Source of the DNA: Lachnospiraceae bacterium
GTDB lineage: Bacteria; Bacillota; Clostridia; Lachnospirales; Lachnospiraceae
Length of the DNA: 36,032 bases
Direction: 5' to 3'
NCBI GenBank assembly: GCA_024694965.1
Contig: JAILJC010000079.1
Span: 1-36,032 of the forward strand
Part shown: piece by piece, positions 17,340 to 36,032 of the stretch
How the letters are laid out: every line of letters starts with the position of its first letter
Position numbering within the stretch: position 1 is the first letter of the stretch
Translations under genes and position numbers: made by a program
The notes under the pieces: generated by a model
The model's database searches: none
Seen by the model: the letters and a program-made list of their open reading frames with translations, nothing else
Told to the model about the DNA's origin: nothing

Positions 17340-20321
17340 GTGCCTACAAAGCAAAAAAGCAGCGGGTTAAAAGAGATCGTTGAGAGAGAAGCCGAGGTCA
17401 TGCTGGGACTCAGGGGCGACGAGGTTTACGGGGAACTTGACAAAGAATATGAAAACGCGGTGCAAAAGGCAGAGGAAGAGCTGGCTAAGGGAAAGAGCGA
17501 GCTTGATGATGCGGTGAAGCTCTTTAATGACACCGATGTCGCTGCGCAGGAACAGATAAAAGACGGTGAAGAAAAAATAAAAACCCTGAGGGAAACGGCC
17601 GAGAAAGAGATCGCTGAAGCCGAAAGAAAGATAGAAAAAGGTGAAAAAGAATATAAAACCCTGTTGGAAGAAGGAGAAAAGCAGCTGGCTGATGCGAAAG
17701 TTCAGATGGAAGATGAGCTTGAAAAATACAGAGAGAAGCTTTCGGAAGGCCGCTTAGAACTGGAAAAGGCCGAGAAGACCCTTAAGGAGAAGGAGGCAGA
17801 GTATAGTGCCGGGAAGGAGAAACTTCTTAAGGGAAAGGAAGAACTGGATAAAGGCTGGGAGGAATATTACAGTGCATTAAGGCAGATCGACAAAAAGCTT
17901 AATGATTCTATTATCGATCAGATAATCCGCCTGTTAAGGGCGATCATAGACCCGTACGATTCCGCTGTCGATACAGATGATGAGCTGATCGATTCAAATA
18001 TTGACATGATAGTCGATGAGCTTATAGAAATGACGGATCCGACTTATTATGAAATAGAGGAATTAATAGATAAGCTTGAAGGATGCAAGGGAAGAGGTAC
18101 GGTTTCAAGGTGCTCTGCTGTGCTGCGCATTTATGATGACCTGACTTCAGGTCTTTCAAGGTCTGTAAAAAAAGATTTTGAAAAAAGAATGGGAATAGAT
18201 GAATTCAGAAAAGGGCTTAACAAGCTTAAAGAAGCGATAAAAACGCTTGATGATTATCAGAAACAGTACGATCAGGGAAAGGAGCAGCTTGAAGAAGCCA
18301 GGAGTCAACTGGATCAGGGATGGGCTGCTTTTGAAGACGGTGAAAGGCAGCTTAAAGAAGGGCAGGCCGAGTTTGACAGTAAGGAGGCGGAAGCAAGGCA
18401 GCAGCTTGAGGACGCCCAAAATGAGTATGAGCAGAAAAAGGCAGATGGCGCAAAGCAGCTTAAAAATGCCAAAGCGCAGCTTAGCTCAAAATCCGCGGAA
18501 GCTGATTCTACCTTAAAGGACCTGGAAGAAGAACTTAAAAAGGCAAAAGAGGAATATGCTGTTCAGAAAGAGGACGGAGAGAAAAAGATAAGCGAAGCCA
18601 CACAGCAATATGAAGATGCAAAAAGGGAAGCCGATGAGAAGCTTTCCGAATTAAAGGCGCAGATCGATAATATGAAGAGTGCGGCGATAAATCCCATTGT
18701 CCAGACAAGGGATGTCAATTTTCCGTATGTCCAGACCAAGTCCTTCATAAAAGCGCTCGGCGGATTCTTTGGCGTATTTACACCTTTGTATGCCGCAATA
18801 ATAGCGATAGTATGCTTTTTCACCATGACGATCATCATATCGGAGCAGACGAGTCAGATAGGAACCTGCAAGGCTTTTGGCATGCATGAATCAGAGATCA
18901 TGAGAAAGTATCTCGTATTCGGTGTTTCAGCCGCACTTATCGGAGCGCTGACGGGTGTTCAGGGAGCCTTTGCCATAGAGAAGTTTCTCATAAACACCAT
19001 GAAAAGCAATATGGCATTCCCGATGGACAATACGGGACATGACATAATAATGATAATACTTCTGCCTGCAATGGAAGTGTTTATAACCGTACTGGCTGTC
19101 CTCTGGTCATGCCACAGGTACATCAGGTGTTCGGCCGTGGGACTGATAAGCGGGAATGAACCGGTCGCAAGATACAGGAAAAAAGCAGGCGGATCAATTT
19201 CAAAAAGCATTTATCTGAATCTTATCATAAACAATCTGTTCACGGACATCGGGAGGGAAGTGGTTTCCGTTGTCACCATTGTCGTGTGTGTGTTCCTTGT
19301 CGGTTTCGGAATCGATATAAAGCTTGCCTACGAGGGGGCCCTTGGCAGGCAGATGCATGATATATGGCAGTATGACATCACGTTAACGGAATCGGGCACA
19401 ATAACCGACGAAGAAAAAGAAGCGGTAAAACAGGCGCTGGCTCCGTACGACACGCTGTATCTGCCTATTACCGCGGGAGTGATATCCGACGGAGATTCAC
19501 AGATCCTTACCAGTATGATCTGTGTTGATGACAAGGACGAGTTCGCAAGATTCTATGTGCTTAAAAACCCGAAGGGAAAAAATACAGATGTTTTTGATGA
19601 CGGCGTTCTTGTGACCAAGGAAATGTTAGACAAAAACGGTCTTTCGACGGGCAGTACCGTCAGTCTTGTCAGCGAAGACTTAAAGTATTCGGATGTTACC
19701 GTAAAGGACATCTTCATGCTCTATGCGGGAAAGACCATGATAATGACAAGTGATTACTACAGGGAACGGTTCGGTAACGATCCCGTGTCCAATACCTATT
19801 ATATCAAGGCGGGAGAAACAGGCGGCGCGGCCACACTTAAAGAGAGGCTGTCAGAGCTTCCGGGAGTTTCATCGGTTGAACTGACAAGCAATCTAAGGGA
19901 CAGGAACCTGGCGGTTGTTAATGTTTATAATGCCGTTGTTGTCATAGTCATTCTTTTTTCGGTCATGCTGTCGTTCATGATCCTGCTTAACCTAAGCAAT
20001 ATCCTGGTGGCACACAGGATGAGGGAGCTTCTTACGATGCGTGTAAACGGATTCTACGACGCTCAGGTCATCGGATACCTGACAAGAGAAGTCATAATGA
20101 CCGTTACGCTGGCTGTGGTGACGGCACTGGCAGTGGGACTGCCGGTTACGGGCATAATAATAAAGAGCATAGAAACAGATGCGTTCATGTTTGTAAGACA
20201 GCCGTACTTTTTTGCCTGGACGGCATCGGTTGTGATAAACGTTCTGTTTTCGGCGATCATAAACTTTATTGCATTCAGGAAGGTAAACAAGGTTCCACTT
20301 ACGGATATCAGTAAATATTGA
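17340..20321 (+). CDS. ABC permease main fragment: coiled coil and FtsX domains
   Basis: A 993-residue open frame. The first 40 or so residues overlap the frameshift zone, so its natural N-terminus is upstream. Residues about 30-110, 110-190 and 300-450 are highly charged heptad-like helices rich in Glu, Lys, Ala and Gln (for example KAEKTLKEKEAEYSAGKE), the long periplasmic coiled coils seen in YhgE/FtsX-like Firmicute permeases. TM segments begin near residue 480 (FFGVFTPLYAAIIAIVCFF) with the FtsX signature (TSQIGTCKAFGMHESEIM). A second MacB-like extracytoplasmic domain is at about 660-850, and a final three TM helices lie at about 870-980. It probably exports or extracts peptides or lipids with the GAF-ABC ATPase 12 bases downstream. 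Confidence 0.85.
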   Translation: MPTKQKSSGLKEIVEREAEVMLGLRGDEVYGELDKEYENAVQKAEEELAKGKSELDDAVKLFNDTDVAAQEQIKDGEEKIKTLRETAEKEIAEAERKIEKGEKEYKTLLEEGEKQLADAKVQMEDELEKYREKLSEGRLELEKAEKTLKEKEAEYSAGKEKLLKGKEELDKGWEEYYSALRQIDKKLNDSIIDQIIRLLRAIIDPYDSAVDTDDELIDSNIDMIVDELIEMTDPTYYEIEELIDKLEGCKGRGTVSRCSAVLRIYDDLTSGLSRSVKKDFEKRMGIDEFRKGLNKLKEAIKTLDDYQKQYDQGKEQLEEARSQLDQGWAAFEDGERQLKEGQAEFDSKEAEARQQLEDAQNEYEQKKADGAKQLKNAKAQLSSKSAEADSTLKDLEEELKKAKEEYAVQKEDGEKKISEATQQYEDAKREADEKLSELKAQIDNMKSAAINPIVQTRDVNFPYVQTKSFIKALGGFFGVFTPLYAAIIAIVCFFTMTIIISEQTSQIGTCKAFGMHESEIMRKYLVFGVSAALIGALTGVQGAFAIEKFLINTMKSNMAFPMDNTGHDIIMIILLPAMEVFITVLAVLWSCHRYIRCSAVGLISGNEPVARYRKKAGGSISKSIYLNLIINNLFTDIGREVVSVVTIVVCVFLVGFGIDIKLAYEGALGRQMHDIWQYDITLTESGTITDEEKEAVKQALAPYDTLYLPITAGVISDGDSQILTSMICVDDKDEFARFYVLKNPKGKNTDVFDDGVLVTKEMLDKNGLSTGSTVSLVSEDLKYSDVTVKDIFMLYAGKTMIMTSDYYRERFGNDPVSNTYYIKAGETGGAATLKERLSELPGVSSVELTSNLRDRNLAVVNVYNAVVVIVILFSVMLSFMILLNLSNILVAHRMRELLTMRVNGFYDAQVIGYLTREVIMTVTLAVVTALAVGLPVTGIIIKSIETDAFMFVRQPYFFAWTASVVINVLFSAIINFIAFRKVNKVPLTDISKY

Positions 20322-20333
20322 TGGAGGGTATTT

Positions 20334-21560
20334 ATGGCATTTAAAGCAGAAAACATTCAGGTCCTGTATAAGATAATGCAGCTTTTGGAAGGGGATCAAA
20401 GCGACACCCTTGAAAGCAGCATTTCCGATGCTATGGAAATTCTGATAAGGGAATTTAAAGCCGAGTCGGGAGCACTGTGGCTTAAGAACCGTGATTCTCA
20501 GCACATCTACAGTATAGTTTCCATAGGTGATGCGAACATTACGGGTTTTTCGATCGAAAACGGCCAGGGGCTCATAGGGGCGGCTTGTGAAAGCTTTGAA
20601 CCTGTAGTGATATATGATGTATCCGGAGATGACAGGTTCCCTGCGGGCAAGGATGAGATAACGGGGATCGAGGTAAAGAATATCCTGCTCATGCCAATGC
20701 AGCTAAGAAAAGAAGTGATCGGCTGTGTCGAGATATTCAACAGGACCGATAATGAGAAGTATTCGGAGGATGATATTTCACTCATACATTCTTTTGCCGG
20801 ACTGGCTTCGCTCCTCATGGATGAGAAGGGATACAGTTATGCGCCCGATGTAAACAAAAAACCGATAATGTCCCTACGGGGAATAACAAAGGATTATCCT
20901 TCGGGACTTGAGGTTGCGCATATCCTTAAAGGGATAGATCTGGATATATTTGAAAATGAGCTTTTGGTCATTCTTGGTGAGAGCGGATGCGGAAAGTCAA
21001 CACTGCTTAATATTATAGGTGGAATGGACAGCCCGACAGGTGGTAAAATATCATTTGACGGAAGAGATTTTTCCCGCCCAAGCACGAAGGAGCTGGTGGA
21101 TTTCAGGCGGGATTCCATAGGATTTATTTTTCAGGCATATAACCTTATGCCTAATCTTACGGCACTTGAGAATGTACAGTTTATCGCGGAACTTTGTAAG
21201 CATTCGGGAAGCGCAAAAGAAGCCATTGACATGGTGGGACTTTCGGACAGGGCAAATAATTATCCTTCCATGATGAGCGGCGGGCAGCAGCAGAGAGTTT
21301 CCATCGCAAGGGCGATCGTTAAGCGGCCGAGGATAATCCTGGCAGACGAGCCGACGGCAGCGCTTGACTTTTCTACCGGACAGGAAGTCCTTGAACTTAT
21401 TGAGAGGCTCATATCCGAAAAGATAACTACAGTGGTGATGGTCACCCACAATGTTGAGATCGCAAAGATGGCCAACAGGGTTGTAAGGGTACGAAACGGA
21501 AAGATCTCAAGCATAAGGATCAATTCGTGGCCGATGCATGCGGCGGACCTTGTCTGGTAG
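20334..21560 (+). CDS. ABC transporter ATPase with N-terminal GAF domain
   Basis: A 408-residue fusion. Residues about 15-165 form a GAF-type sensor domain (ALWLKNRDSQ, the GFSIENGQGLIGAACES block, NILLMPMQLRKEVIGCVEIF). Residues about 180-400 are a LolD/MacB-type ABC ATPase: Walker A GESGCGKST, Q-loop FQAYNLMP, signature MSGGQQQR, Walker B IILADEPTAALD and H-loop VTHN, all intact. GGAGGG lies 6-7 bases before ATG. It follows the permease by 12 bases and should power it. The GAF head suggests that transport is gated by a small ligand (such as a cyclic nucleotide) or redox state, which is inference. LolD-type ATPases normally lack this head. Confidence 0.92.
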   Translation: MAFKAENIQVLYKIMQLLEGDQSDTLESSISDAMEILIREFKAESGALWLKNRDSQHIYSIVSIGDANITGFSIENGQGLIGAACESFEPVVIYDVSGDDRFPAGKDEITGIEVKNILLMPMQLRKEVIGCVEIFNRTDNEKYSEDDISLIHSFAGLASLLMDEKGYSYAPDVNKKPIMSLRGITKDYPSGLEVAHILKGIDLDIFENELLVILGESGCGKSTLLNIIGGMDSPTGGKISFDGRDFSRPSTKELVDFRRDSIGFIFQAYNLMPNLTALENVQFIAELCKHSGSAKEAIDMVGLSDRANNYPSMMSGGQQQRVSIARAIVKRPRIILADEPTAALDFSTGQEVLELIERLISEKITTVVMVTHNVEIAKMANRVVRVRNGKISSIRINSWPMHAADLVW

Positions 21561-28080: not shown

Positions 28081-29184
28081 ATGGCTTTTCGGATAGTAAG
28101 AGACGACATAACAAATGTATCGGCCGATGCGATCGTAAATCCGGCTGATGAGGATTTCACTTACGGTGTGGGGCAGGCTGTGCTTGCGCCTGCTTTCGGG
28201 CATCCTTCGAAATATATCATCCACACCGTTGCTCCGGAATGGACAGACGGTGAGCAAGGTGAACGTGAGGCATTAAGACTGTGCTATGAGAACTGCCTTA
28301 ACCTTGCCCTTGAAAACGGATGTGAGAGCATCGCTTTTCCGCTTATAGCGGCCGGGTCAGGCGGCTTTCCGAAGGAAGAGTCATTACAGACGGCGGTTGC
28401 TGTGTTCGGTGATTTTTTATCCCGTGAAGATATGCAGATCATACTGGCCGTATCCGAAGAAGGATCATTAATCCTGCCGGGTAAGATATTCAGCGGCGTT
28501 GATGCATATATCGATGAAAACTATATATCTGAGCAGCCGGAGGAAGAGTATGAGGATACTCATCCACATAGGGAAAAGAGAAAACCGCGCGGGGTAGGGA
28601 AACTGCTTTCATCGCTTCTTATGCCTCGGGATGACTGGGTCGCAAAGCACGCCGCCAAGATAGTGGAAGATGAACCGGAAGAAGATACAGTAGAGGATGC
28701 GGCCGAATTCTATTATGAGGCTGCTGCGAAAGATGAAGGGCCGGTCGGGAGTGCGGGTATGTTCATGGCACAGCCGCAGGCTGCCATGTTCGGCGCAGCA
28801 ACAGCCATGTCGGCGCCGTCCCTGGATGAGCGGGTGACCCATGTGGCGGATACCTGGCAGGAGAATCTCCTGCACCTTATAGATGAGCGGGGGTACACGG
28901 ATATCGAGGTATATAAGAGGGCAAATGTTGACCGGAAGCTGTTTTCCAAGATAAGGAGCAATGCATCATACCAGCCCAAGAAGATAACCGCTCTGGCTTT
29001 TGCGCTGGCACTCAGGTTAAACCTTGATGAAACGAAAGACTTCTTAAGCCGCGCGGGATATGCATTGTCTCCGAGCAGTGTTTTTGATCTTATAATAAAG
29101 TATTTTATAGAACAGGAGGTTTATGATACATATTCGATAAACCTTGCGCTATTTGAGCATGACCAGCCGCTGCTGGGCGAATGA
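28081..29184 (+). CDS. Macro-domain protein with C-terminal helical/HTH-like domain
   Basis: A 367-residue protein. Residues about 1-150 are a macro domain (MAFRIVRDDITNVSADAIVNPAD; KYIIHTVAPEW; FPLIAAGSGGFPKEE), the fold that binds ADP-ribose. The glycine-rich loop and helix that normally follow NAAN (GGGVxxAI...) are absent: the sequence passes directly from NPADEDFTYG to GQAVLAPAF, about 25-35 residues short. An acidic, low-complexity linker (about 155-245) leads to a helical C-terminal domain of about 115 residues (ERGYTDIEVYKRANVDRKLFSK; KDFLSRAGYALSPSS) that looks like an HTH-type unit. GGGGAG precedes ATG. A VWA gene follows. It may bind nucleic acid or ADP-ribosylated targets; catalysis is doubtful. 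Confidence 0.85.
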   Translation: MAFRIVRDDITNVSADAIVNPADEDFTYGVGQAVLAPAFGHPSKYIIHTVAPEWTDGEQGEREALRLCYENCLNLALENGCESIAFPLIAAGSGGFPKEESLQTAVAVFGDFLSREDMQIILAVSEEGSLILPGKIFSGVDAYIDENYISEQPEEEYEDTHPHREKRKPRGVGKLLSSLLMPRDDWVAKHAAKIVEDEPEEDTVEDAAEFYYEAAAKDEGPVGSAGMFMAQPQAAMFGAATAMSAPSLDERVTHVADTWQENLLHLIDERGYTDIEVYKRANVDRKLFSKIRSNASYQPKKITALAFALALRLNLDETKDFLSRAGYALSPSSVFDLIIKYFIEQEVYDTYSINLALFEHDQPLLGE

Positions 29185-29298
29185 TTCTTACATATGATCA
29201 ATGTCGCCTGCCATGCGACCAGACGATCTCCCAAATATCCTATACTTGCCTCAACAGGAAAAAAACAGGCCGGAAGGCGGAAAGAGAGGTAAGGTATT

Positions 29299-29973
29299 AT
29301 GAAGAAAGGATTAACGGAGATCGTTTTTATTTTGGACAGGAGCGGATCGATGGGAGGACTTGAAGCAGATACGATAGGCGGATACAATTCAATGCTCACA
29401 AAGCAGAAAAGTGAGGAAGGTGAAGCGATCATATCGACGGTTTTATTTGATGATAAGGTTGAGGTCCTGCATAACAGGAAGAGCCTTGAGCAGATGAAGC
29501 CCATAACAAATAAGGATTACTACGTCCGCGGATGCACGGCACTCCTTGATGCGGTGGGAAGCTCCATAAAGCATATCGGCAAGATCCATAAGGAAGAGGG
29601 CGATGAAAGCCCTGAAAAGACCATTTTCATAATCACGACCGACGGCATGGAAAATGCAAGTAAGAAATATACCTATGACAAGGTTAAAAAGATGGTCGAA
29701 AAGAAGAAAGAAAAGAATAACTGGGAATTCATTTTCATGGGCGCGAATATGGACGCCATAAACGTTGCAAGCCGGTTCGGTGTTGCGGCCAACAGGGCAG
29801 TCCGCTTTGAGAATGACAGCATGGGAACAGCACTTAATTATTCGGTAATGTCAAAACTGGTAAGCTGTGCGAGGGCAGCAGGATCGGCAAAAGAGATGGG
29901 CAAAGCTATCGAGTGCGAAGATGCTCTTGAAGAGATCCGCGATGATTACGCCAGACGGCATCAGGGATCATGA
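29299..29973 (+). CDS. VWA domain protein
   Basis: A 224-residue von Willebrand A-type protein, cytoplasmic (no signal). The MIDAS metal site is complete: DRSGSM near residue 14, GCTALLDAVG (threonine) and ITTDGMEN (aspartate). It is like TerY-type and cobalamin-chelatase-associated VWA proteins that hold partner proteins together. AGAGAGGTAAGG lies upstream of ATG. It follows the macro-domain gene after 114 bases with no strong terminator, so the two may be co-expressed. No kinase, PP2C or Ter gene is present in the window, so the tellurite-type triad is not supported. Confidence 0.9.
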   Translation: MKKGLTEIVFILDRSGSMGGLEADTIGGYNSMLTKQKSEEGEAIISTVLFDDKVEVLHNRKSLEQMKPITNKDYYVRGCTALLDAVGSSIKHIGKIHKEEGDESPEKTIFIITTDGMENASKKYTYDKVKKMVEKKKEKNNWEFIFMGANMDAINVASRFGVAANRAVRFENDSMGTALNYSVMSKLVSCARAAGSAKEMGKAIECEDALEEIRDDYARRHQGS

Positions 29974-30919: not shown

Positions 30920-33799
30920 TTGAACACACATGATATTTTAATTTCAATACAATACGTGACGATAAGCGTTTTGTTCATTGAAATATGTATTGTTTTCCTA
31001 AGATGGAAAAATTCTATCCATTCATATCTTTTTCTGGCATTGATGGCTTCGTTTATAAGCAATGTCGGTTATCTGTTCGAAATGAAGGCGGGATCGGAGG
31101 AGACATATATCACGGCCCTTAAGTTTTCATACATAGGAAGGGTATGGATCGTTTTTGCATTCTTCCTGTTTGCGGCAAAAATGTGCGGGATAAAGATACC
31201 GAGGGGAGTTGTACTGTCTCTGGTGCTTATACATATCGGGATCTTTATTTCGGTACTTAACATCGGAAGTAGCAGTTTATACTATACGGATTACCGGTTT
31301 GTTCCCGATCCGGTATTCCCAAAGTTCTATCACGGCAACGGAAGCATGCATGACCTTTATGTGGGACTCAACGGTATCCTTATCGTCCTTGGCATGACGT
31401 GGGTAATAAGGGAGTTTGTCAGGGAGAAGAATAAAGCATCAAAGTCAAGGTTCCTTATGCTCATCATGGCATTTGGTGTTGAGGGCTTATCTTTCATATT
31501 GCAGATGACGGGTGTGTTCGGTATCAAAGAATACTACGACCTGACAATACCGGGCGTTTTGTTCGGGACCGTATTCATGCTTATAGGCATCCTTGGGTTT
31601 GATCTCCTGGGCGCACGGGAGATAGCCAGGGATTTTGCCATAGACAGGATTCCCGAAGGTATCATAGCCGTGGATAACGATGGCAGGATTCAGTACTACA
31701 ACGAGCCTGCCGCAAAGATATATCCCGAGTTTGACAGCTTTTTCAGGAAGGGTCCGTTAAAGTCGGCCGCAAAAAGCATGTATACCCCGTATGATATCAT
31801 TTCATTTATTTCGGATGCAGTTACGACGGGTGATACGCTTAAGGTGGATGACAGGATATATACTCCCGAAGAAAACGACTTAATGTACAAGGGAGAAAAT
31901 TACGGCAAGCTGTATACCCTGGTTGATGATACGGAGCATTATCAATACATGGACGAGCTTCAGAAACAGAGGGACATAGCCGACAGCGCAAATGCGGCAA
32001 AGAGCAGGTTTCTGGCAAACATGTCCCATGAGATAAGAACACCCATAAATGCGATCCTCGGAATGGATGAGATGATCCTGCGCGAATCGGAGGAAAAGCC
32101 CATCCGCTTATATGCCTCGGATATAATGTCGGCGGGCCGGACGCTTTTATCCCTAATAAACGATATCCTTGACCTGTCAAAAGTCGAGGAAGGAAAGATG
32201 GAGATAATCCCTGTCCAGTATGATCTGTCTTCCCTTATAAACGATCTGGTTCATATGACCCGTGACAGGGCGGCCAAAAAAGGACTTAAGTTCAGCGTCA
32301 GTGCAGATGAACATATACCGCATCTTTTAAACGGCGATGAGATCCGTATAAGGCAGTGTGCGATGAACCTGCTGACAAACGCGGTAAAATATACCGAAGA
32401 AGGAGAAGTATCGGTTACGGTTTCATTTGAAAAGGCTGATAAAGATCATATCCTTCTTTCATTTACGGTCAAGGATACCGGGATAGGTATGAGGGAAGAG
32501 GATATAGATAAGCTCTTTTCTCCTTACAAGCGAATTGATGAAAAGAGAAACCGTACGATCGAGGGAACGGGACTGGGCATGAGCATCACAAGACAGATGC
32601 TTGAACTTATGGGAAGTTCTCTTTCGGTACACAGTGAGTACGGCAGGGGATCGGAATTTTCATTTGCCGTTAAGCAGGAAGTGGTAAAATGGGATGAGCT
32701 CGGAGATTACACCGCCAGGTTCGGTGATGATCACGCTCTTTCATATGAGTATCATGAACTGTTCCATGCGCCCGATGCAACTATCCTTGTTGTGGATGAC
32801 ACGGAGGTTAACCTTACCGTCATACAGAACCTGCTTAAGAAGACGAAGATCGGGATAGATACCGCCTTGTCGGGAAAGGATGCATTAAAACTTGCTTCCG
32901 AAAAGCTTTATGACGTGATATTCATCGATCATATGATGCCTGATATGGACGGCATCGAGACATTAAACCATATACGGGATTCTGGAATGAGCAAGGATGT
33001 TCCCGCTGTGGCGCTTACGGCCAATGCGGTTTCGGGTGCGAGGGAAATGTACCTTGAAGCGGGATTTGCGGATTATCTTTCAAAACCGGTTGACGGTGAA
33101 AGGCTGGAGAAGCTGCTTAAGAACATGCTCCCTGATGATAAGCTTAAGGAGCCTTCGGACGAACCGGACAGGGAAGAGCCGGAAAAGGAAGATTCACACG
33201 GTGAAGGACCGGCAGCAGGCCTTATGTCATGTCTTAAGGACATTGATGAGATAGATGAAGAAGCAGGCCTTAAGAACTGCGGCTCGGAAGAAGGATACTT
33301 ATCCGTTCTTTCCGTATTCCGGAAGACTGCCTTATCAAAAGCGGATGAGATTGAGAAGTTTTGCGGGGACGGCGATATAGAGAATTACACGACCAAGGTC
33401 CATGCGCTTAAGAGTTCAGCAAGGATCATAGGAGCGGCTGAGTTGTCCGAACTGGCAAAGGATCTTGAAGATGCGGGAAAGAGAAAAGATATCACCTATA
33501 TAAACGAAAATACCGACAGGCTTCTTAGCATGTACCGTGAGCTTTACGATAAGCTGTCGCGGCTTGATGATGAGGATGAGGACCTGCCTCCTATCGGTGA
33601 AAAAGCACTTAAGGAAGCATATCAGACCATCATTGAGATAGCGGGCAGCATGGATTACGGTATGATGGAGGGCATACTTAAGGACCTTAAAAAATACAGT
33701 CTTCAAAAACCGGATAAGGAGAAGATATCAAAGATTGAATGCATGCTTACGGAGCTTGACTGGGACGGTATTATAAAAACAGCAGGTGAAGGATTATGA
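30920..33799 (+). CDS. 7TM hybrid sensor histidine kinase with REC and HPt domains
   Basis: A 959-residue membrane sensor kinase. Residues about 10-235 hold seven hydrophobic helices (histidine-kinase N-terminal 7TM type), followed by a PAS-like segment (about 240-340, IPEGIIAVDNDGRIQYYNEPA). Then come HisKA with H370 in NMSHEIRTP, HATPase_c (NLLTNAVKYT N-box, DTGIGM, GTGLGMS), a receiver domain with D670 in FIDHMMPDMDG, and an HPt domain with H828 in HALKSS. A short acidic C-terminal extension follows. Start TTG 30920 has GAGGTG 5 bases upstream. It overlaps the EIIC-EAL gene by ATGA, so the two proteins are translationally coupled. There is no DNA-binding output domain. Its leader carries element C. 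The stimulus is unknown. Confidence 0.95.
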   Translation: MNTHDILISIQYVTISVLFIEICIVFLRWKNSIHSYLFLALMASFISNVGYLFEMKAGSEETYITALKFSYIGRVWIVFAFFLFAAKMCGIKIPRGVVLSLVLIHIGIFISVLNIGSSSLYYTDYRFVPDPVFPKFYHGNGSMHDLYVGLNGILIVLGMTWVIREFVREKNKASKSRFLMLIMAFGVEGLSFILQMTGVFGIKEYYDLTIPGVLFGTVFMLIGILGFDLLGAREIARDFAIDRIPEGIIAVDNDGRIQYYNEPAAKIYPEFDSFFRKGPLKSAAKSMYTPYDIISFISDAVTTGDTLKVDDRIYTPEENDLMYKGENYGKLYTLVDDTEHYQYMDELQKQRDIADSANAAKSRFLANMSHEIRTPINAILGMDEMILRESEEKPIRLYASDIMSAGRTLLSLINDILDLSKVEEGKMEIIPVQYDLSSLINDLVHMTRDRAAKKGLKFSVSADEHIPHLLNGDEIRIRQCAMNLLTNAVKYTEEGEVSVTVSFEKADKDHILLSFTVKDTGIGMREEDIDKLFSPYKRIDEKRNRTIEGTGLGMSITRQMLELMGSSLSVHSEYGRGSEFSFAVKQEVVKWDELGDYTARFGDDHALSYEYHELFHAPDATILVVDDTEVNLTVIQNLLKKTKIGIDTALSGKDALKLASEKLYDVIFIDHMMPDMDGIETLNHIRDSGMSKDVPAVALTANAVSGAREMYLEAGFADYLSKPVDGERLEKLLKNMLPDDKLKEPSDEPDREEPEKEDSHGEGPAAGLMSCLKDIDEIDEEAGLKNCGSEEGYLSVLSVFRKTALSKADEIEKFCGDGDIENYTTKVHALKSSARIIGAAELSELAKDLEDAGKRKDITYINENTDRLLSMYRELYDKLSRLDDEDEDLPPIGEKALKEAYQTIIEIAGSMDYGMMEGILKDLKKYSLQKPDKEKISKIECMLTELDWDGIIKTAGEGL

Positions 33800-35901
33800 A
33801 TAATACATTTTTAAAGAAAGTAACTGTCATAACGGGTACGATAAAAACAAGCCTGGCAATGGTGATCCCCATTCTGTTCATAGGAAGTATCACGGTTTTG
33901 CTTAACGGCTTTCCGATACAGGCCTATCAGGATTTTATAAGTACCTTTATGGGAGGGGCATTAAGGAGCATCCTCCTTATGGTCCAGACGGCGACCGTAG
34001 GGATACTTGCCATATACATAACGGTAGCATTAAACCTAAGCTATATGCACCGGACGGACGAAGGAATGAGGCTTGTTTTCAGGTTCGGAAGCCTTCTCGG
34101 ATGTCTTACGGGATTTCTTATCATTACGGGATTGTTTTCCGGAGAGCCTGATCTGTCGCTCCTTAGCGGGCAGGGTGTGTTCAGTGCTCTGGTGGCAGGC
34201 ATCGCCGGTTCGGTCCTGTTTAAAAAATTTGAAGAACTTTTCAAAATGCGGAAAATGGTTTTTGTTGACGGTGCGGATTCGGAGTTCAATGCTGCCCTTC
34301 ATGTGATCCTGCCATTCCTCAGCGTGACTTTAGTATTTGCCGTGGTAAATTATCTTATCACAGTCTGTTTTCAGGTCCAGAGTATCCAGCATCTTTTCAT
34401 GAAGGTTATGGATGCGATCTTTTTAAGGATGCACAGGTCCTATTCAAGCGGTCTTTTGTTCACCACTCTTACCAGTATAATGTGGTGGTTCGGGATCCAC
34501 GGGAACAATGTCCTAAATCAGGTGGCGGTGGAGATGTTCACCGAGATAATCCCGGGTGAGATAGTTTCAAAGAGTTTTATTGATACTTTCGTCAATATGG
34601 GCGGGACCGGATGTACGATCGGTCTTCTGTTTGCGATGATGGTGTTCGGAAAACGAAGCTCCACCAAAAAGCTTTCGGGCATGGCGCTCCTGCCGGGCAT
34701 ATTCAATATAGGGGAGATGATGGTCTTCGGTTTCCCGGTAATTTACAATCCGACCATGATAATCCCGTTCATCCTGGCACCGATCCTTTGTTTTTCATGT
34801 GCTTTCCTGCTTACTGTCACAGGATTTTTACCGCCTGTTGCAACTGAGGTTGTATGGACAACACCTGCGCTCATGAGCGGGTATCTGGCTACGGGTTCGG
34901 TAAAGGGTATCATTGTCCAGCTTCTTAATATCGTTATCTCAACCGCCTGCTATGCGCCGTTTGTGATAAGGTATGAGAAAGAATCACTCGATGAGTTTTC
35001 TTCCGCTATGAATGAACTTGTATCAATACTTAAGAAGAGTGAAGAGCTTGCGGAAGAAGTTGTGCTGACGGAATGCGAAGGAAATGTGGGAAGGCTCGCC
35101 AAGCTGCTTGCGACGGACCTTGATGCGTCACTGTCAAAGTCGTCGCCCGATGCGGATCATGAAAGGGCTGAAAGCCCGCTTATTATAAAATACCAGCCGC
35201 AGTATGATAATCTTGGCCGGTGCATGGGAGCGGAAGCGCTGCTTCGGTGGAACCACGTAAGGTACGGGATAATCTATCCGCCGCTTGCCGTTCAGATAGC
35301 TAAGGAAAGCGGTGCGCTTTACAGGCTGGAAACATATATCATAGAAAAGGCTATACGCGATTCGGCTTCTTTAAGGGAATGCTTCGGAGATAAGTTTAAG
35401 TTAAGCGTCAACGCTACGGTAACGACTCTTTATGATAAGAGATTTGTTTCGTTTCTGCAGACGATGGCGGACCGTTATAAATTAAAGACGGGAAACATCT
35501 GTATAGAGATCACGGAGGAGACCGAGCTTGTGACGACGGAGGAAACCGGTGAGCTTATTAAGAATATAAGAACTTTCGGATATACCTTTGCCCTGGATGA
35601 TTTCAGCATGGGTCACACTTCGCTGCAGTATCTGCAGCACAACCAGTTTGATATAGTAAAGCTTGACGGTAACCTTGTAAGGTCGATACTTACGAACGAC
35701 CGCACAAAGGAGATAATCAACTCGATCGTATATCTGTCAAAGTCTCTTGATTTCAAAGTCCTTGCCGAGTTCGTGGAAACTCCGGAACAAAAGGAGGCGC
35801 TTGAGCAGATAGGATGCCTGTTGTATCAGGGATACTTATTCAGCCCGGCGCTTGATAAGGATGTATTGATCTCGGAGCATGGTAAAGACAACGGTAAATG
35901 A
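33796..35901 (+). CDS. PTS EIIC-EAL fusion: sugar-permease domain with c-di-GMP phosphodiesterase
   Basis: A 701-residue fusion. Residues about 1-400 are a PTS EIIC (cellobiose/lactose ChbC-type) membrane domain of about ten helices, with the conserved sugar-site histidine H235 in WWFGIHGNN and glutamate E307 in NIGEMMVFGFPVIYNP, both kept. After a helical linker (about 400-465) comes an EAL domain with YQPQYD, E480-A-L, a metal asparagine in SVNATV, EITEET, D601-D602 in LDDFSMG, K622 in IVKLDG and E658-E661 in AEFVET, so it should hydrolyse cyclic di-GMP. No EIIA or EIIB gene is visible, so EIIC may be a sensor or a partner of distant EIIB. Coupled by ATGA overlap to the kinase. This is a rare domain order. 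Confidence 0.93.
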   Translation: MNNTFLKKVTVITGTIKTSLAMVIPILFIGSITVLLNGFPIQAYQDFISTFMGGALRSILLMVQTATVGILAIYITVALNLSYMHRTDEGMRLVFRFGSLLGCLTGFLIITGLFSGEPDLSLLSGQGVFSALVAGIAGSVLFKKFEELFKMRKMVFVDGADSEFNAALHVILPFLSVTLVFAVVNYLITVCFQVQSIQHLFMKVMDAIFLRMHRSYSSGLLFTTLTSIMWWFGIHGNNVLNQVAVEMFTEIIPGEIVSKSFIDTFVNMGGTGCTIGLLFAMMVFGKRSSTKKLSGMALLPGIFNIGEMMVFGFPVIYNPTMIIPFILAPILCFSCAFLLTVTGFLPPVATEVVWTTPALMSGYLATGSVKGIIVQLLNIVISTACYAPFVIRYEKESLDEFSSAMNELVSILKKSEELAEEVVLTECEGNVGRLAKLLATDLDASLSKSSPDADHERAESPLIIKYQPQYDNLGRCMGAEALLRWNHVRYGIIYPPLAVQIAKESGALYRLETYIIEKAIRDSASLRECFGDKFKLSVNATVTTLYDKRFVSFLQTMADRYKLKTGNICIEITEETELVTTEETGELIKNIRTFGYTFALDDFSMGHTSLQYLQHNQFDIVKLDGNLVRSILTNDRTKEIINSIVYLSKSLDFKVLAEFVETPEQKEALEQIGCLLYQGYLFSPALDKDVLISEHGKDNGK

Positions 35902-35937: not shown

Positions 35938-36032
35938 ATGGGACTGTTTGATCGTATAGAAGAAAAAGAACCTGACAGCAGGCCGCCTGTTGTCATGGCG
36001 GGTATCAGGACAAACGAGGATGACGAAGAATT
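35938..36032 (+). CDS. Unidentified gene, 3' partial
   Basis: The start of a gene at ATG 35938, with GAGGG about 5 bases upstream, 36 bases after the EIIC-EAL stop. About 31 residues are visible (MGLFDRIEEKEPDSRPPVV...), hydrophilic and acidic, with no motif I recognise. It may be the third member of the kinase operon, or a small regulator; the sequence ends too soon to tell. Confidence 0.55.
   Translation, partial: MGLFDRIEEKEPDSRPPVVMAGIRTNEDDEE

Follow-up and report, generated by a model that had tools for sequence, protein, structure and literature searches.

Sugars are tabled as inputs to c-di-GMP enzymes in only a few cases in the part of a review that was available to us (PMC8846402), where a PTS_EIIC input to a c-di-GMP protein is counted as a rare pairing and placed among the phosphoreceiver domains. 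A described case in which a PTS component governs an EAL phosphodiesterase by sugar is PdeS of Vibrio cholerae, controlled by EIIA-Glc (PMC6877527); there, a separate EIIA acts through its phosphorylation state, whereas in the protein analyzed here a membrane EIIC would be the covalent input to the EAL domain. The two halves of this protein have their closest described counterparts in the permease ChbC (3QNQ) and in BifA (PDB 8ARV), the latter sharing its EAL fold and catalytic residues but differing in the input domains. Our literature searches brought up no work on the function of an EIIC-EAL protein, in line with the original prediction, which knew of no described function for such a fusion, and the available parts of two Clostridioides difficile papers (PMC6200980, PMC9286219) do not mention an EIIC fused to an EAL domain.

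The fusion (hereafter E) and the 7TM hybrid histidine kinase encoded before it (K) lie on a stretch of 36,032 nucleotides, here called the window, from Lachnospiraceae bacterium (GCA_024694965.1, contig JAILJC010000079.1, positions 1-36,032, forward strand). The source genome is 88% complete, which bears on every absence claimed for it. An Rfam scan of the window returned no family at or over threshold. The 14 promoter-like sites (9.7 expected, sd 3.2) and 3 terminator-like sites (4.3 expected) that were found enter none of the conclusions below. The features considered are the following:

30920..33799, + strand: K, 7TM hybrid histidine kinase, 959 aa, TTG start (ORF call, Pfam)
30971..31609, + strand: HisKA_7TM membrane input of K (PF16927, e-value 6.7e-16)
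31997..32677, + strand: HisKA and HATPase_c of K (PF00512, PF02518)
32783..33118, + strand: receiver domain (Response_reg) of K (PF00072), with D670
33305..33526, + strand: HPt domain (Hpt) of K (PF01627), with H828
33796..33799, + strand: ATGA overlap (ATG of E at 33796, TGA of K at 33797-33799)
33796..35901, + strand: E, EIIC-EAL fusion, 701 aa (ORF call, Pfam, AlphaFold, Foldseek)
33853..34782, + strand: PTS EIIC domain of lactose/cellobiose type, residues 20-329 of E (PF02378, e-value 5.7e-24)
34252..34308, + strand: loop, residues 153-171 of E, where transporter-invariant residues are lost in fusions (residue comparison)
34498..34500, + strand: pocket histidine H235 of E (= ChbC H250)
34714..34719, + strand: E307 (= ChbC E334), kept, and M308, where transporters carry P (residue comparison)
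34963..35178, + strand: helical EIIC-to-EAL linker with conserved E416, G432, A435 and L438, HAMP-like but not shown as HAMP
35179..35847, + strand: EAL phosphodiesterase domain with intact catalytic residues (Pfam residues 462-684; PF00563, e-value 1.2e-54)
35938..36032 (contig end), + strand: truncated open frame 3' of E, 31 codons, for which no identity was found

A renewed ORF call reproduced both reading frames, their lengths and the ATGA overlap as first described. We put at roughly two in three (0.66) the probability that E is a sugar receptor derived from a PTS permease, standing outside phosphotransfer and switching its EAL domain, and sharing an operon with the kinase in this lineage.

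The EIIC part of E matches the ChbC profile strongly (e-value 1.1e-64, profile positions 13-401), scores 188.3 bits against the PTS lactose/cellobiose EIIC family TIGR00410, under the curated cut-off of 236, and its AlphaFold model (pLDDT 81, pTM 0.68) was matched by Foldseek to the EAL domain of BifA and to ChbC, the latter with an e-value of 7e-13 but a TM-score of only 0.31-0.46. Residues H235 and E307, which had been singled out as the sugar site, align with H250 and E334 of ChbC (positions counted by hand along the profile alignment), so that the conserved pocket His and Glu of ChbC are both found in E. Among 68 fusions, compared with 24 stand-alone transporters (the single EIIC-MCP protein, L099, is counted among the 68), H235 is kept in 65/68 and E307 in 67/68. 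The opposite holds for residues invariant in transporters: P161, V164, F168 and P208 are present in all 24 stand-alone relatives and P308 in 23/24, while the fusions retain P161 in 0/68, P208 in 1/68 and P308 in 1/68. P208 is kept by the EIIC-MCP protein, and P308 by one EIIC-EAL protein (L103). At these five positions, E carries D, F, L, I, and M, and differs from ChbC in lacking both Pro 308 and the signature that its stand-alone relatives show in the loop 153-171, as well as in carrying an EAL domain in a genome with no PF02302 EIIB match. Among rows from outside the set in which the rule was found, eight further fusions all lacked both P308 and P208 (8/8), against 24/24 and 23/24 stand-alone rows keeping P208 and P308, respectively. 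One stand-alone row without the transporter signature (L162) is directly followed by an EAL part in another frame and counts as a split fusion; the row itself was left unaltered. The EIIC of E looks like a sensor rather than a normal permease, although the fused EIICs could still transport sugar.

If E were still a working permease, an EIIB would have to serve it in trans, and the EAL domain would read its phosphorylation or transport state. EI and HPr are indeed present in the source genome, the pocket residues are kept, and the review cited above groups PTS_EIIC with phosphoreceiver domains in its available part. The only two PTS_EIIC matches of the source genome, however, are both EIIC-EAL proteins, and neither a PF02302 EIIB nor a PF02255 EIIA match was found there; the early remark that no EIIB is encoded at the locus thus holds for PF02302 across this 88% complete genome. 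These absences refer to two of the several EIIB and EIIA families, which also include PF00367, PF00358 (EIIA-Glc), PF00359, and PF03610. The same two families are also missing from all 12 genomes of the genus that carry an EIIC-EAL; across the 37 sampled genus genomes, PF02302 was matched in one and PF02255 in none, while HPr occurs in 37/37 and EI in 24/25. At the level of the order, 26 genomes encode a fusion or an EIIC of fusion length, 13 with and 13 without a PF02302 match, so phosphotransfer in trans may occur in the former. The lack of PF02302 and PF02255 matches in the source genome and its fusion-carrying relatives of the genus, together with the disappearance of P208, P308 and those residues of the 153-171 loop that are retained in transporters, makes a permease role of E improbable. 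The present data favor sugar reception apart from the phosphotransfer chain over the phosphoreceiver role given to PTS_EIIC in the review.

The pairing of EIIC and EAL had been called unusual, which agrees with its rarity in the available part of the same review, but it is no one-off, as it was verified in 25 of the 392 genomes sampled from the order (source genome included). In a tree of 43 fusions (EIIC-MCP among them) and the 24 stand-alone transporters, the fused EIICs form a single clade separate from the transporters (branch support 100/96), and it is inside this clade that the EIIC-MCP protein, so far a single case, carries a chemoreceptor output in place of the EAL domain. The C. difficile protein WP_003435700.1, whose database label is only EAL domain-containing protein, shares the EIIC-EAL architecture of E and shows the pocket and the residue losses of the other fusions. 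The PLSDB gene table, perhaps not a complete one, has no kinase-annotated gene within 5 kb of it. The proposed role of EIIC as a sugar sensor gained comparative support: no PF02302 or PF02255 match in the source genome, a retained pocket, the loss of transporter-only residues, and one chemoreceptor output.

Outside the kinase clade, the neighboring genes of E have no sugar pathway in common. Inspection by eye placed one distant locus (L113) among genes resembling a glycosyl hydrolase, a LacI-type regulator and ABC sugar transport, and a flagellin-like gene beside another (L108), each a single case. An HPr-like gene adjoins the second EIIC-EAL in 7/7 loci and was considered as a meaningful link, but the same gene with the same helicase also occurs at a type A locus (L046), and weak HPr-like matches are found in most genomes of the genus. 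This neighborhood may simply reflect synteny with the helicase, and we built no conclusion on it.

On the output side, the EAL residues E480, D601, D602 and K622, reported from the start as kept, proved invariant among 36 aligned relatives, and E holds all nine catalytic residues (E480, N539, E571, E574, D601, D602, K622, E658, and Q678), whose roles we take to be those of their counterparts in RocR-type enzymes. All nine are intact in 65/67 EIIC-EAL rows (type A 36/37, type B 7/7, distant 22/23), the exceptions being L103 and L059, the latter from a genus genome (G016) in which the EAL part is cut short. Judging from these residues, the EAL part of E probably destroys c-di-GMP. The linker between the two domains carries a motif resembling the second HAMP helix. 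Comparison with the HAMP profile (hhalign) gave a probability of 13% and a score of 16.5, where 100 column shuffles reached 11.3 at the 95th of 100 and 18.1 at maximum, and eight control regions scored 8.8 to 12.6 except for one HPt region at 18.8; the type A linker alone scored 12.1, and Pfam detected HAMP in 1/10 linkers (e-value 0.055). Since the score was no better than that of one control region, we make no claim of HAMP identity.

K is a HisKA_7TM hybrid kinase by its 7TM input, HisKA, HATPase, receiver and HPt domains and its phosphosites (Pfam and alignment). It shares 52-73% identity with 11 relatives, with H370, D670 and H828 invariant in all 12 rows. Of the domain order originally read from it (7TM-PAS-HisKA-HATPase-REC-HPt), all parts lie over the Pfam cut-off but the PAS domain, a weak match below it (e-value 0.008). 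A kinase of this type adjoins E in 16/16 rows of one clade (15 upstream, 1 downstream; SH-aLRT 98) and is absent from the 20/20 other close loci that could be judged, and none of 20 distant fusions adjoins a relative of its 7TM input. On this comparative evidence, the association with the kinase is genuine but recent, restricted to one clade, and any coupling of E to K would be lineage-specific.

What the link means depends on how the two proteins work. They could form one receptor complex, in which EIIC passes its sugar signal sideways to the 7TM kinase and the EAL domain is a second output, much as UhpC passes its signal to UhpB. The unbroken adjacency in the clade fits this idea, often with a 4-base overlap (also in L013, L029, L037, L039, L047, L059, and L069), as does the finding that, of the kinase orthologues in the 37 genus genomes, the five whose 7TM region is nearly complete all adjoin E. 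At the distant locus L120, moreover, a HisKA_7TM-PAS-HATPase-CheX kinase, with no detected similarity to the 7TM part of K, and a receiver gene are found beside the fusion but on the opposite strand. This might represent a kinase-fusion pairing that arose a second time, independently. Against a complex stand the 20 close and 20 distant loci where E occurs without this kinase, and one genome (G007) in which the kinase lacks E and directly precedes a tandem-receiver regulator gene; we regard a complex of this kind as unlikely, if less so than a permease role.

The same regulator gene follows E in 5/12 kinase-linked loci, and E is independent of this kinase over most of its range, both of which suit an arrangement in which E and K only share an operon, K working with the tandem-receiver regulator and E alone. 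The link nevertheless persists in each of the 16 rows of the clade, although their E proteins have drifted to about 70% identity to that of the window, and the L120 pairing also speaks against mere co-residence, so that we give this arrangement close to an even chance, falling slightly short of it. The partner of K was first sought in the following partial gene or in an unlinked regulator; the former is the 31-codon frame without found identity, and the tandem-receiver regulator, not seen on the truncated contig of the window, is the better candidate and probably the partner. Given this better partner, and because the kinase adjoins the fusion in a single clade, the proposal of a coupled kinase/EIIC-EAL module is weakened, its linkage standing for that clade.

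In the sugar-receptor reading that we prefer, E would act as a membrane-bound sugar receptor, its ligand most likely being a disaccharide or a short oligosaccharide. Its receptor part would derive from a cellobiose/chitobiose-type PTS permease that left the phosphotransfer chain, and its pocket would retain sugar binding. ChbC is a dimer, and binding may move the EIIC dimer of E between conformations, a change that would be relayed by the long C-terminal helix to a dimeric EAL domain, which would then hydrolyze c-di-GMP faster or slower. In the lineage of the window, E and the 7TM hybrid kinase belong to one operon, which in several relatives also includes the tandem-receiver regulator, and by which sugar-controlled c-di-GMP breakdown and a phosphorelay would be produced together. 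We infer that sugar is bound and with what sign it acts, that c-di-GMP is hydrolyzed, that the dimer works in this way, and that kinase and E exchange any signal; the idea of a sugar-switched phosphodiesterase is well supported by comparison of sequences.

More broadly, it seems somewhat likelier than even that a class of sugar receptors evolved from PTS permeases, with an EIIC off the phosphotransfer chain that kept its pocket and lost the transporter signature. It would be wired to several outputs (mostly c-di-GMP breakdown, chemotaxis once, and c-di-GMP synthesis once from a different EIIC type), extend over several Bacillota families, with C. difficile among their members, and in rumen Lachnospiraceae be joined to a kinase/response-regulator operon. 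If so, a transporter family would be a supply of ready-made receptors, a residue signature would allow receptors and permeases to be told apart in genomes, and a few substitutions would suffice to test how a transporter turns into a sensor. A function would also be suggested for a C. difficile EAL protein so far named by its domain alone, and plant-fiber sugars would be tied to the c-di-GMP-controlled behavior of rumen bacteria.

Two overlapping genes lie at the right-hand side of the window, with an ATGA joining the end of the first to the start of the second:

30920-33799, + strand: K, a 7TM hybrid histidine kinase (959 aa, TTG start)
33796-35901, + strand: E, an EIIC-EAL fusion (701 aa)

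Reading of the ORFs agreed with the original prediction in coordinates and overlap. The kinase had been described as 7TM-PAS-HisKA-HATPase-REC-HPt, and HisKA_7TM, HisKA, HATPase_c, Response_reg and Hpt were recovered above the Pfam cut-offs, the PAS domain being a weak match under its cut-off; the phosphosites H370, D670 and H828 of K were invariant in an alignment of 12 kinases. In E, Pfam placed PTS_EIIC at residues 20-329 and EAL at residues 462-684, and in an AlphaFold model (36 sequences, mean pLDDT 81, pTM 0.68) a helix formed by residues 370-418 leads from the EIIC part toward the EAL domain. Structure comparison of this model gave good EAL matches and a match to ChbC (3QNQ) with a low TM-score (0.31 to 0.46). 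Elsewhere in the window, an FtsX-like permease precedes an ABC ATPase that bears a GAF domain at its N terminus (17340-21560), and a Macro-domain protein precedes a small protein that resembles a von Willebrand A domain by eye and has no Pfam match (28081-29973).

A profile of 24 EIIC parts matched one PDB sequence, 3QNQ (E 1.1e-64, cut-off E ≤ 0.001), and in this alignment, with residue numbers counted by hand, H235 and E307 of E pair with H250 and E334 of ChbC. Retention of this sugar-site pair had been proposed for E and extends to its relatives, as seen when 68 fusions (37 type A, i.e., of the window's kind, 7 of a second kind found in the genus, type B, and 24 distant ones, one of them an EIIC-MCP) were compared with 24 stand-alone transporters, using the positions at which 22 or more of these transporters share a residue. 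Among the positions retained were W230 (67/68), G233 (68), H235 (65), G236 (67), N304 (68), E307 (67), G312 (67), P314 (68), N318 (66), W354 (65), and T355 (68). Others were nearly always lost, both in one loop (fusions still having I153, 3; P157, 3; V160, 4; P161, 0; V164, 1; F168, 2) and outside it (P208, 1; P308, 1; P353, 1; E401, 5), with L171 (11) and N306 (27) intermediate. These counts therefore indicate, at the level of sequence, that the pocket is preserved in the fusions and that a second set of residues is altered, mostly one loop and the Pro308 beside the pocket Glu. The only row with P208 is the EIIC-MCP (L099), and the only one with P308 is L103, which also lacks E307 and two EAL residues. 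In rows that had no part in finding the rule, all eight further fusions (L150-L153, L156, L162, L209, L210) were without Pro at 208 and 308, while the stand-alone rows from the phylum-search loci had P208 in 24/24 and P308 in 23/24; the loop was laxer in these 24 rows (P, V, P, V, F in 19). In a tree of EIIC parts, a single branch (support 100/96) separates 43 fusions (every distant and type B row, 24 and 7 in number, plus 12 of the 37 type A) from the 24 transporters.

The output domain appears intact as well. Nine EAL residues, whose roles we assume to be those of known EAL enzymes (E480, N539, E571, E574, D601, D602, K622, E658, and Q678), were all present in 36/37 type A, 7/7 type B, and 22/23 distant EIIC-EAL rows, the exceptions being L059, with a shortened EAL part, and L103. 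The original observation that E480, D601/D602 and K622 are kept was borne out in the window and in nearly all relatives, and since the nine residues are intact, the EAL domain is expected to be an active phosphodiesterase.

Absence of an EIIB near E had also been claimed, and the window's whole genome (2.76 Mb in 228 contigs, with 88% completeness) likewise gave no PF02302 match; it has 16 EAL matches and two PTS_EIIC matches, both of them EIIC-EAL (type A in the window, type B on contig C196). Across the genus, 15 of 37 genomes had 20 PTS_EIIC matches: 8 type A, 7 type B, one GGDEF-EIIC, and four in which the frames inspected showed no such fusion (G050 has two of these, G051 one, and G013 one that a contig end cuts). 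For the two families searched, EIIB PF02302 was found only in G051, whose EIIC is unfused, and EIIA PF02255 in 0/37 genomes, so none of the 12 genus genomes with EIIC-EAL matched either. HPr was present in 37/37 and EI in 24 of 25 genomes examined. Beyond the genus the pattern is mixed: 26 genomes of the order have a fusion, or an EIIC frame long enough for one, and PF02302 matched in half of them (13) and not in the other 13.

Type B has constant neighbours in 7/7 genus loci, a small HPr-like protein and a PTS_EIIC_2 (PF13303) protein, the latter identified with Pfam in L058 and through BLAST clustering elsewhere:

L058:8344-8580 (contig C196 of the window's genome, G000), L062, L063, L064, L065, L070, and L074: type B loci with the HPr-like neighbour

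By eye, the HPr-like protein lacks the active His15 stretch of HPr and has the Ser46 region; in this it is like Crh of B. subtilis. The association may be mere synteny, as L046 has the HPr-like gene beside the same helicase as type B loci and no type B gene in the 18 kb covered.

A conserved linkage of kinase and EIIC-EAL, as originally envisaged, held in one clade only. Among 41 non-redundant type A rows, K lies directly upstream in 15, at least 500 bases upstream are free of K in 21, and 5 were not judgeable. All 15 belong to a single 16-row clade (SH-aLRT 98), whose remaining member, L026, has its kinase (52% identical) immediately downstream; the 20 other rows that could be judged fall outside this clade. 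No relative of K's 7TM part was detected within four frames on each side of 20 distant fusions (L107-L126; BLAST, E ≤ 1e-3), with flanks of at least 3 kb per side except downstream in L111 (869 bases) and L123 (353 bases) and upstream in L122 and L126 (about 2 kb). Against a clean negative stands L120:3397-7081 (G134:C1), where a HisKA_7TM-PAS-HATPase-CheX kinase adjoins the EIIC-EAL on the opposite strand, with a receiver gene behind; Pfam covered the neighbours of L120 only, and other unrelated kinases could have escaped.

In the 37 genus genomes, five kinases match K residues 1-345 near full length at ≥ 66%, and all five adjoin E. A sixth, cut by a contig end (L148:1180-4474, G007:C40), has a tandem-receiver regulator immediately after it and no intervening E; the second half of this regulator is a receiver above the Pfam cut-off and the first is receiver-like by eye. 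Such a regulator follows E in 5 of the 12 kinase-linked loci with enough downstream DNA (L022, L034, L037, L039, L047) and is absent behind E in the other 7; in L042 it overlaps E by 4 bases. Given these arrangements, K and the regulator are likely a phosphorelay pair with E inside their operon. Any regulator of the window's own is out of sight because the contig stops 131 bases past E. In another locus (L013:370-5013), c-di-GMP and phosphorelay genes cluster upstream of the kinase and EIIC-EAL; they encode a second hybrid kinase, a receiver-HD_5 (HD-GYP-like) protein, and a tandem-receiver regulator.

EIIC profile matches occurred in at least 67 of 392 genomes of the order (E ≤ 1e-20) and at least 61 of 398 of the phylum, lower bounds as only up to four candidates per genome were scored. 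The 25 fusion-length proteins examined from the order (own genome aside) came from 24 genomes, 24 proteins carrying EAL and one MCP, with both kinds in G152. EIIC-EAL was verified in 25/392 genomes, own included, a count that leaves out two further genomes with fusion-length frames, G269 and G185. The 30 phylum loci returned held five further one-frame EIIC-EAL and one split over two overlapping frames (L162, G790:C10, starts 1456 and 2442), probably a broken or mis-assembled fusion. Named cases are C. difficile WP_003435700.1 and Acetoanaerobium noterae; a 47% identical EIIC-EAL in a Treponema brennaborense MAG (L049:161-2230) possibly reflects transfer or a binning error.

Two single cases carry other outputs. 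In L099:442-2790 (G152:C11), a possible sugar chemoreceptor, an MCP signalling domain sits on an EIIC of the same clade as E's, and L073:1265-3664 (G021:C50) joins GGDEF to PTS_EIIC (Pfam) of a different, by reading fructose-like, type. One input with several outputs looks like a receptor module, as far as L099 and L073 go. G152 also has the EIIC-EAL L130, and G021 is a genus genome without PF02302 match.

In a 2022 review (PMC8846402), PTS_EIIC is a rare input of c-di-GMP proteins, termed phosphoreceiver, and PdeS with EIIA-Glc is tabled as a PTS link, which acts via a separate EIIA (PMC6877527). No functional study of EIIC-EAL was found in the literature searched, most subscription papers lying outside its reach. 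Several of the permease features tested were missing from E, which is therefore not classed as a PTS permease; it is filed as a putative c-di-GMP phosphodiesterase whose receptor derives from a permease. The architecture of E, its intact sites, the absence of partners from two families and the loss of the signature are read from sequence. When sugar binds, the EIIC dimer would change conformation, and the continuous helix would transmit this shift to the EAL dimer. The ligand, the sign of its effect and this dimer mechanism we infer, together with a role that E may have in attachment or motility.
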